From positions 1 through 38,462 of the IMG/VR virus record IMGVR_UViG_3300017749_000034: a stretch of DNA of 38,462 nucleotides, one strand, 5' to 3'. Below are positions 2,210 to 4,118 of this stretch, one piece after another. Both the position numbers and the translations under genes were made by a program. The DNA comes from a virus. Under the pieces are notes generated by a model, which saw only the letters and a list, made by a program, of their open reading frames with translations, was not told the DNA's origin and did no database searches. Position 1 is the stretch's first letter. Each line of letters starts with the position of its first letter.

Positions 2210-2791
2210 ATGGGTATCTCACTTTCAGGTGGTCCCTGGCAATACAATCGTTTTTCCTCATTGGACGAGGGTTCTAAGCCAGACTATCTCGACTTCGATA
2301 AAGACGGTAATAAAGAAGAGCCTATGAAGAAGGCTCTTAAGGAGAAAGGTAAGAAGCCTTGTCCCAAGTGTGAGGACAAGGAATCCCCCTGTGAATGTCA
2401 CGACACGGTTAAGGAGTGGGTAGAGTCTCTCTTAGAGGGAGGATACGACCTTTCTGAGTACACCTGGGATCAGATGGTTGAAATGTTTGATGAAGGATGG
2501 AATCCTATTGATAAAGAAAAGCAAGGCAAGATTGATAGACAGATTGGTCGTGCTGCTGACAAAGAAGCAATCGAAAGGGGCAAGTCTGAGAAGTATGGAC
2601 GTGACGAGAAGAAGATTGAAAAACAGTATCAACGTCAACAAGCCATGAGATTTGGCAAGAAGATGAAGAAAGAGGAAGTTGAATCATATCTCGTAAGTGA
2701 AGGTTTTGCCAGTAACCCAGTTTCCGCAGAAGTCCTATTCAATCATATGAGTAAAGACTGGCTGGAAGCCATCGAAAAGTCACTCGGTTGA
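2210..2791 (+). CDS. Conserved phage protein with EF-hand-like loop and Cys cluster, function unknown
   Basis: A 193-residue, highly charged protein. An EF-hand-like loop DFDKDGNKEE lies at residues 28-37 (acidic positions 28, 30, 32 and 36). A cysteine cluster CPKC-x6-CEC lies at residues 51-63 and could bind zinc. The middle (residues ~105-150) is a Lys/Glu/Gln-rich helix, and the end (VESYLVSEGFASNPVSAEVLFNHMS) looks like a short helical module I associate with cyanophage proteins of unknown role. The gene follows the S74 fibre gene by 19 nt. Its stop codon overlaps the -35 box of the sigma70 promoter that follows. I do not recognise a function. Confidence 0.75.
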   Translation: MGISLSGGPWQYNRFSSLDEGSKPDYLDFDKDGNKEEPMKKALKEKGKKPCPKCEDKESPCECHDTVKEWVESLLEGGYDLSEYTWDQMVEMFDEGWNPIDKEKQGKIDRQIGRAADKEAIERGKSEKYGRDEKKIEKQYQRQQAMRFGKKMKKEEVESYLVSEGFASNPVSAEVLFNHMSKDWLEAIEKSLG

Positions 2792-2816
2792 CAAACCACA
2801 AGGGTTCTCTTATAAT
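2788..2816 (+). promoter_or_regulatory. Consensus sigma70-type promoter (TTGACA-N17-TATAAT)
   Basis: TTGACA at 2788-2793 and TATAAT at 2811-2816 are both perfect consensus hexamers with the ideal 17-nt spacer. The -35 box contains the TGA stop of the upstream gene, and the -10 box lies in the loop side of a hairpin. Transcription should start near 2822-2824. In T4-like cyanophages this promoter class serves early genes read by unmodified host RNA polymerase. Confidence 0.7.
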
Positions 2817-2834
2817 ATAAGGGACCCTTTTTTT
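2800..2834 (+). terminator. Hairpin plus T-run immediately before a start codon
   Basis: AAGGGTTC (2800-2807) pairs with GGACCCTT (2822-2829). After a one-base bulge, CTTA (2809-2812) pairs with TAAG (2818-2821), closing a 5-nt loop. A run of seven T follows (2828-2834), and the ATG of the next gene begins at 2835. It fits an intrinsic terminator for the upstream unit, and it also holds the -10 box of the following promoter. Confidence 0.65.
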
Positions 2835-3074
2835 ATGTCTATGTCTCAGACTGAGTTAGTTAATTACTACAATATCACTCCAGAACAAGTTCAAGAGGAA
2901 GTTTTACTTCTGACTCTTGAAAATATTAAGCAATTTCCTTGCACCATTTCCCTTCGAGACCAATTTTACTCGATGTGGCAACGATTTGGTTCCCAAGCAG
3001 CACGAACTGCCACCATTCCTTATGTCTGGCAAGGTAAAGTCCCCCTCCCTAGTGAATACTTCAGTGGAAAATGA
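2835..3074 (+). CDS. Small protein of unknown function (79 aa)
   Basis: An unrecognised 79-residue protein: a helical N-terminal half (ELVNYYNITPEQVQEEVLLL) followed by FPCTISLRDQFYSMWQRFG and a short polar tail. It begins directly after the T-run of a hairpin. The only Shine-Dalgarno-like bases, AAGGGA (2819-2824), lie in the 3' arm of that hairpin, 10 nt from the ATG. An alternative start at 2841 (Met3) is possible. It is the first of four tiny genes downstream of the sigma70 promoter, and its stop overlaps the next frame. Codon use looks like that of its neighbours. The function is open. Confidence 0.65.
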   Translation: MSMSQTELVNYYNITPEQVQEEVLLLTLENIKQFPCTISLRDQFYSMWQRFGSQAARTATIPYVWQGKVPLPSEYFSGK

Positions 3075-3213
3075 CCAAGAAACTCCTCCAGAGTTGATGT
3101 ATAGGGCTCCCGGAAGGGAGGATCATCAAAATATAGTCGAAATTTTTGATGAAATCATGAATCGTCTAAACAACATAGAGCAAACTCTCTCAAATATTCA
3201 AAATTCTAACTAA
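3064..3213 (+). CDS. Small coiled-coil protein (about 49 aa), GTG start
   Basis: The frame ending at TAA 3211-3213 can be read upstream to a TTG at 2917, but that part merely shadows the 79-aa gene. The credible start is GTG 3064, which overlaps the previous stop by 11 nt; ATG 3097 is an alternative. The product ends with the amphipathic helix IVEIFDEIMNRLNNIEQTLS, a short coiled coil of the same style as the end of the small protein at 23108-23314. No membrane segment or catalytic motif is seen. The next gene starts on the last base of its stop (TAATG), which points to coupled translation. Confidence 0.5.
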   Translation: MENDQETPPELMYRAPGREDHQNIVEIFDEIMNRLNNIEQTLSNIQNSN

Positions 3214-3359
3214 TGGCACGTATTTTCTCAAAGTCTGGTGAAGCACTAATCATCCCGACCAACAAAAAGACCTATCAGGGGTCTTCAAAGAATACAAAAT
3301 ACTCCAGAAGGAGCAATTCCAGCGCCAAAAAACGATACAGAGGTCAAGGTAGAAGTTAA
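3213..3359 (+). CDS. Small basic protein (48 aa), conserved-looking phage protein
   Basis: The ATG at 3213 shares its A with the TAA stop of the preceding gene. The 48 residues begin MARIFSKSGEALIIPTNKKT and continue into a strongly basic, Ser/Asn/Arg/Lys-rich tail that ends RYRGQGRS. Such a tail could bind nucleic acid or an acidic protein surface, but no known family is certain. It resembles short conserved proteins I associate with T4-like cyanophage baseplate regions. The overlapping start supports its being real and translated with the gene before it. Confidence 0.6.
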   Translation: MARIFSKSGEALIIPTNKKTYQGSSKNTKYSRRSNSSAKKRYRGQGRS

Positions 3360-3362
3360 TCA

Positions 3363-3370
3363 GATAAATA
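3363..3370 (+). promoter_or_regulatory. Putative T4-type late promoter (GATAAATA)
   Basis: GATAAATA lies 22 nt before the ATG at 3393 and starts 3 nt after the preceding stop codon. Between them stands a strong Shine-Dalgarno sequence (AAAGGAGAA, 3381-3389). Confidence 0.65.
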
Positions 3371-3392
3371 CAGCATAACCAAAGGAGAAACT

Positions 3393-3563
3393 ATGACACA
3401 TAAAGAACGATATCCTGACTTTCTGGAAGAAACCATGTTTGCCGAACACGGAACTCGTGTTCTCATCAGCGATCCTACTGCTGACATTTACATAGAACAA
3501 GCCAGAGCACGAAAACTAAGGGAGAAATACCCCCAGTGGGTCGAAGGACAAGAGAATAACTGA
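3393..3563 (+). CDS. Small charged protein of unknown function (56 aa)
   Basis: The ATG follows a strong AAAGGAG ribosome site, and the frame runs 56 codons to TGA at 3561-3563. The product begins MTHKERYPDFLEETMFAEHG. It contains the helix TADIYIEQARARKLREKYPQ and ends VEGQENN. It is probably a single helical hairpin. It is the last of the four-gene cluster, and its stop codon is part of the late promoter of gp25. I do not recognise the family; its own late promoter and ribosome site argue that it is expressed. Confidence 0.65.
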   Translation: MTHKERYPDFLEETMFAEHGTRVLISDPTADIYIEQARARKLREKYPQWVEGQENN

Positions 3564-3569
3564 TAAATA
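3562..3569 (+). promoter_or_regulatory. Putative T4-type late promoter of gp25 (GATAAATA)
   Basis: GATAAATA begins on the second base of the TGA stop of the preceding gene and forms the 5' edge of a hairpin. Transcription starting 5-7 nt downstream would begin in the hairpin loop (about 3575), 16 nt before the gp25 ATG. Confidence 0.7.
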
Positions 3570-3590
3570 GGGGCAAAGGCCCCTATTTTT
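3565..3590 (+). terminator. Hairpin with short T-run directly before gp25
   Basis: AAATAGGGGC (3565-3574) pairs perfectly with GCCCCTATTT (3579-3588) around an AAAG loop, followed by TT and then the ATG at 3591. It can end transcripts of the small-gene cluster. The only Shine-Dalgarno-like bases for gp25 (AAGG 3576-3579) are held in the loop and top of the stem in read-through RNA. Confidence 0.65.
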
Positions 3591-4118
3591 ATGTCCATAT
3601 TCATATCTAGAGAGTCAAAACGGTTTGTTGATGTTTCTTTGTCGTTTGAACCAAACCCAATCACCAAAGATCTCGCCACAATCAACAATGAAAGAGCAAT
3701 TAATAACTCCCTAAAGAACCTCATGATGATTGCAGCCAGTGAGGTACCTTTTAATGCAGATATTGGGTCTGGTGTTGCTAGTTATTTGTTTGAAAATGTA
3801 GATGAGGTGACTGCTGAACTCCTACAACAAGAAATTCAACGTGTTATTGTATTCAGTGAGCCTAGAGTTGAGTTAGTGTCCCCCCTAAACGCTGAAAGTA
3901 TAAATGGTGGTATGAATTATGCCATTAGTGGAACACAAGGACTTGATAATAGAGCTTTTTCACCAATTAGTGAGGGACAGGGGTTTGCCAATCAATTTTC
4001 ATCAGTAAGAGTAGAGAGTAGACCGGACCAAAATATGTTCTCGGTGAATATAACATACAAAATCGTTGGATATGAACAAATCTACACTTTCAACCAACTT
4101 TTAGAACCTACCAGATAG
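3591..4118 (+). CDS. 25: Baseplate wedge subunit gp25
   Basis: A 175-residue protein of the gp25/GPW family, whose core resembles lysozyme but is structural. The family EPR motif is visible at Glu90-Pro91-Arg92 (VFSEPRVELV), preceded by the SLKNLMMIAASEVPFNADIGSGV segment (residues 40-62), in which NADIGSGV fits the conserved loop. In T4, gp25 joins gp6 and gp53 in the wedge core and helps start sheath assembly. The protein is longer than T4 gp25 (132 residues); the extra length lies in residues ~100-140. The start is the first Met after the hairpin and has no free Shine-Dalgarno in read-through RNA. gp6 follows 34 nt later. Confidence 0.93.
   Translation: MSIFISRESKRFVDVSLSFEPNPITKDLATINNERAINNSLKNLMMIAASEVPFNADIGSGVASYLFENVDEVTAELLQQEIQRVIVFSEPRVELVSPLNAESINGGMNYAISGTQGLDNRAFSPISEGQGFANQFSSVRVESRPDQNMFSVNITYKIVGYEQIYTFNQLLEPTR

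Follow-up and report, generated by a model that had tools for sequence, protein, structure and literature searches.

Small genes without assigned function that stand under a sigma70-type promoter, with late boxes only before the conserved late genes, were described in 2006 (PMC1524935). The morons of lambdoid phages combine a promoter, one or several ORFs and a terminator into an independent unit located between conserved structural genes (PMC1524935). For the late genes e, soc, 25 and I-TevI of phage T4, a hairpin was reported that forms only on the read-through early RNA (PMC2988022), and the late box of T4 covers positions −13 to −6 (PMC1524935). Cyanomyoviruses are devoid of alt, modA and modB and are thought to transcribe their early genes with the host sigma70 (PMC2984593).

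The window, that is, the whole 38-kb stretch of DNA analysed here, is an IMG/VR virus record of a T4-like cyanophage. By gp25, its nearest isolates are S-CREM2, MA01 and its kin, S-H34, S-N03, S-B68 and S-CRM01, most of which were placed in ‘cluster C’ (PMC10665884). No Rfam elements or tRNAs were found in the window. A profile search with P1, the first small protein of the island considered below, gave 31 IMG/VR loci encoding it, and isolates were added for comparison. About 30 related P1-bearing loci were compared; they are related by descent, and counts of loci are therefore not counts of independent events. The gene order P1-P2-(P3)-(P4)-gp25-gp6 is kept in all P1 loci, as far as the contig extends. 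The first-pass annotation had proposed looking in other cyanophages for the same promoter and small-gene set upstream of gene 25, and the gene set was found in about 30 related loci, with the promoter in nearly all of them.

In our opinion, P1-P2(-P3) is a conserved pre-late unit in the late block of cluster C phages, with hairpin-insulated ends and small, probably non-virion products; the probability of this reading may be put at about 0.78. The start sites, stop sites and timing given for the island are predictions from the sequence. Its features are as follows.

2788–2816, plus strand: host-type (sigma70) promoter, TTGACA-N17-TATAAT, with 12 of 12 positions matching, conserved before P1 orthologues.
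2800–2834, plus strand: terminator-like hairpin (2800–2829) and a run of seven T, with the −10 box in the apex; minimum free energy −13.7 kcal/mol, z −3.3.
2835–3074, plus strand: P1, 79 aa, a small protein predicted to be all-helical; no PHROG, Pfam or PDB match.
3064–3213, plus strand: P2, 49 aa, with a GTG start, overlapping the end of P1; phrog_699/27895; one long predicted helix.
3213–3359, plus strand: P3, 48 aa, strongly basic; phrog_516, widespread in cyanophages.
3364–3370, plus strand: late promoter box ATAAATA of P4; a late box lies within 70 nt of P4 in 19 of 20 loci.
3393–3563, plus strand: P4, 56 aa, by its promoter box a mainly late gene; phrog_1414.
3563–3590, plus strand: composite boundary, in which a late box ATAAATA (3563–3569) abuts a hairpin (3565–3588) with a T run; present in 29 of 30 P1-bearing loci.
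3591–4118, plus strand: gp25 baseplate wedge gene (GPW_gp25, phrog_261), the first conserved late gene after the island.

Codon-position differences and dN values well below dS, calculated against locus L011, show that P1–P4 are all real genes, in agreement with the initial description of four tiny genes of 79, 49, 48 and 56 codons. The products had been called unrecognised. This is correct for P1, which belongs to no known family and whose function was not indicated by any match in PHROGs, Pfam, PDB sequences or Foldseek, and incorrect for P2, P3 and P4, which match phrog_699/27895, phrog_516 and phrog_1414, respectively, all being PHROGs without assigned function. Apart from one weak match, P1 was detected in cluster C-type records only; its predicted structure is all-helical (pLDDT 89), and in the viral structure library only the S-N03 relative matches it. 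In the predicted structure of P2, a single long helix comes after a short segment. Since the start of P2 overlaps the stop of P1, the two genes are probably translationally coupled, and from this overlap it may be supposed that their products perhaps form a complex. P3, present in 317 phage records, has an invariant GQG near its end and, judging by its basic character, is possibly a nucleic-acid-binding protein. This gene stands away from gp25 in S-TIM5 (L132), where it is beside speD and a tail fibre gene, and in Sf-FS3 (L124), so its link with gp25 is not obligatory. Between P2 and P3, L025–L028 and L033 have an additional gene that is lysine-rich, coiled-coil-like and variable in length. 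In S-CRM01, an unannotated 70-aa ORF (L005:3055-3264; HQ615693, about 177741-177950) overlaps the P3 stop and contains the motif CSHCG...YHYTC; with its paired cysteines and histidine, it possibly encodes a small zinc-binding protein.

Matches to TTGACA and TATAAT are given out of 12 positions, and Markov sequences served as nulls. The perfect TTGACA-N17-TATAAT reported before the four genes was confirmed: no other site in the 38-kb window reaches 12/12, 0.07 such sites being expected there under a first-order Markov null, and its predicted start lies at about 2822–2824. The −35 box (2788–2793) holds the TGA stop (2789–2791) of the upstream 193-aa gene. Besides the window, the promoter is perfect in L011, L025, L026, L028, L033, L034 and L037, and in most loci the spacer is 17 bp long and the −10 box ends 15–26 nt upstream of the P1 start. 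The mean match upstream of P1 in 27 non-redundant loci was 10.15/12 versus 7.27 (sd 0.18, maximum 7.9) for the Markov null. A sigma70 score of at least 9.5 was obtained upstream of P1 in 24 of 30 loci and elsewhere much more rarely (P2, 0/30; P3, 3/23; P4, 1/20; gp25, 1/28; gp6, 0/28); L014, L015 and, for the start chosen, L022 have a weak promoter or none. A chance origin of the promoter was rejected on the strength of its conservation across loci and of shuffles. The extended −10 element (TGnTATAAT) accompanies an imperfect −35 box in 11 of 16 loci and a perfect one in 1 of 10 (p=0.005), a comparison somewhat favoured by the scoring scheme; selection on promoter activity would be expected to produce such pairing.

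A GAGTC-like motif was noticed about four bases after the −10 box in L025, L026, L028, L029, L032–L034, L039 and S-RSM4 (L129). Scanning the collection for leaders with this motif gave at least 120 matches versus 24 for a scrambled control; the matches were redundant and of mixed kinds, including tRNA leaders as well as unrelated genes, and no claim of a cyanophage early signature is therefore made.

When 295 annotated gene starts of S-CRM01 were scored, the P1 promoter took second place behind only that of gp55, the late sigma factor, and its spacer and start-codon distance were the same as in gp45 and uvsY. The gp55 gene carries this promoter class in 77 IMG/VR loci. A near-consensus host promoter precedes gp55 in essentially all cyanophage loci examined (L044–L123), the mean match being 10.6/12 in the more distant set. 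The distribution of late boxes is different: they are located upstream of P4 in 19 of 20 loci, of gp25 in 26 of 28 and of gp6 in all 28, and upstream of P1 in only 4 of 30. The window contains 16 late boxes, 15 of which have an ATG 22–39 nt downstream; the genes upstream of P1 have theirs at 978 and 2183, and none precedes P1. In L025–L028, a late box (ATAAATA or CTAAATA) is situated within the 17–18 bp spacer of the host-type promoter, forming an overlapping early/late promoter, so synthesis of P1 may fall in both phases in these loci.

The promoter class of P1, the lack of a late box at this gene in most loci and the use of host sigma70 by cyanomyoviruses together strongly support early, or at least pre-late, transcription of the P1 unit as the best reading of the sequence data. 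The host-type promoter assigned to the island by the first-pass annotation is thus both conserved and specific to the unit. The idea of a four-gene early island is retained for the core P1-P2(-P3) and abandoned for P4, whose own late box is conserved; the accompanying suggestion that a late promoter gives the last gene a late phase agrees with the box at 3364–3370.

Hairpins were found at both ends of the island, as had been supposed, and their interpretation as insulation is upheld as far as sequence allows. The one before gp25 (3565–3588) is real, with an energy of −15 kcal/mol, and has the look of a terminator: its stem ends 2–11 nt before the start codon, a T run comes next, and there is no clear Shine-Dalgarno sequence. 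A late box combined with a terminator hairpin precedes gp25 (or P4) in 29 of 30 P1-bearing loci versus 0 of 9 isolates without P1 (Fisher p=5e-8), although all nine of these isolates do have a late box within 300 nt before gp25. In L025 and L033, the combination stands before P4, where the late part begins. Of the window's 16 late boxes, only that of gp25 has such a hairpin. Elsewhere in S-CRM01, a late box clearly abutting a terminator hairpin was seen only at the glutaredoxin gene (L041:29492 region, minus strand). If the −13/−6 rule of T4 is applied, the late RNA at gp25 should start close to where the 5′ arm ends and would be unable to fold the hairpin; a predicted late start inside the hairpin, giving late RNA without the 5′ arm, is a geometry shared by 29 of 30 loci. 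By the same logic, P1 RNA started at the sigma70 site would escape its own hairpin.

Hairpins over the −10 box of P1 were revealed in about half of the loci, and their arm sequences are quite different from one another. Some of them have no T run, and in L025, L026, L028, L033 and L034 the promoter is kept with no significant hairpin at the −10 box. Termination is therefore maybe not the sole role of this element. A protein operator as the origin of the dyad is less likely, as the arms differ by lineage yet stay complementary.

The following mechanism may be proposed. Transcription would be started at the P1 promoter by host RNA polymerase that is unmodified and carries the primary sigma factor of the host, and the early transcript would cover P1, P2, P3 and P4 and end at the hairpin before gp25. 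Read-through RNA coming from upstream would carry a whole hairpin and would either stop there or have the next start codon masked; RNA begun at the embedded promoter would be without the 5′ arm and would continue. The placing of a promoter within a hairpin at both ends would thus keep late tail-fibre transcripts out of P1 and early P1 transcripts out of gp25. Later, the gp55-dependent boxes at 3364 and 3563 would turn on P4 and gp25-gp6. The products of the island would probably be small proteins outside the virion. A fuller version of this scheme, in which two mirror-image promoter-in-terminator elements make up a two-way insulator, P1 and P2 are a host-takeover pair made only early, and hairpin sequences have been repeatedly replaced with their geometry kept, is put forward tentatively, the odds being rather against it as a whole.

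Mass spectrometry easily misses very small proteins. In the virion proteome of S-CREM2, ORF115, 116, 120, 121 and 122 were present, and 117, 118 (P1) and 119 (P2) were undetected (PMC10665884 Table 3). Proteins of about 80 residues were detected in the same virion, which gives the absence of P1 and P2 some weight, not much; it is consistent with a non-virion role. That the island products act on the host has, in our estimate, slightly less than an even chance. The same absence suits another explanation, in which transcription is as described above and P1 and P2 are non-virion assembly helpers, such as a chaperone or catalyst, made in advance for gp25 and gp6 and having no action on the host. 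The unit adjoins gp25-gp6 in every locus showing both, and GenBank names P1 of S-CREM2 (gp118) a ‘tail assembly chaperone’. No sequence, profile or fold match of P1 to any known chaperone supports this label, however, and a frameshifted tail-assembly chaperone pair is not supported either: P2 is read in the +1 and not the −1 frame, with a start codon of its own where the two genes meet, and the P1-P2 pair adjoins gp25, not the tape measure gene. Moreover, helpers of this kind would be expected to be expressed late, yet 26 of the 30 loci have no late box at P1, and other phage lineages make the same baseplate without P1. Such a helper role may be regarded as a possibility of some substance, with the balance against it.

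Two further explanations concern transcription itself. P1–P3 may form a two-phase (‘middle’) unit, expressed early from the host-type promoter and again late, either through late boxes that overlap it or by read-through, and would then not be specifically early. For middle genes of RB49, S-PM2 and Syn9, early promoters overlapping with late ones have been suggested (PMC2984593), and the late box in the promoter spacer of L025–L028 is of this type; 26 of the 30 loci have none before P1, and in the window a terminator-like hairpin separates the upstream late genes from P1. This reading is rated as unlikely. It may also be supposed that TATAAT is an accident without promoter activity, the loop, rich in A+T, of an ordinary terminator at the close of the tail-fibre transcript. 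The −10 box of the window does sit in a hairpin apex, and the genes before it are served by the late boxes at 978 and 2183, but L025, L026, L028, L033 and L034 preserve perfect promoters with no significant hairpin, and promoter conservation is far above the null, so this explanation is highly improbable. The pre-late unit P1-P2(-P3) is preferred to all of these.

A set of small genes of cluster C phages, formerly regarded as hypothetical proteins in the virion block, is thus probably expressed ahead of the virion genes, which makes P1-P2(-P3) a definite candidate for a part in host takeover or in the control of assembly. Units with opposite timing are compactly nested here on one strand, with little intergenic DNA between them. 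At such a locus, labelling genes as late, structural or ‘tail assembly chaperone’ from their neighbours would be misleading.

Comparing the island with known systems, it may be concluded that early small-gene units and the embedded-promoter logic of T4 were known before, and that the island differs in the terminator form of the hairpin and in its mirror image at the early promoter. The island shares with the system of 2006 (PMC1524935) its small genes, their sigma70-type promoter and the restriction of late boxes to conserved late genes, and differs from it in lying inside the late block directly before gene 25, in being a fixed set within one clade and in having its promoter within a hairpin. 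Like the morons, it combines a promoter, ORFs and a terminator between conserved structural genes; unlike them, it contains several genes kept throughout a clade and has no atypical composition (G+C 0.406 versus 0.408 for the window). Its −35/−10 class, 17-bp spacer and start-codon distance are those of the cyanophage gp55, gp45 and uvsY promoters, whereas these genes serve replication and late transcription and P1–P3 are placed among virion genes. As in T4 e, soc, 25 and I-TevI, the late promoter is positioned so that late RNA is deprived of the 5′ arm, gene 25 being involved in both cases; the T4 hairpin hides the ribosome-binding site, whereas that of the island is shaped like an intrinsic terminator, T run included, and is mirrored by a second hairpin at the early promoter.
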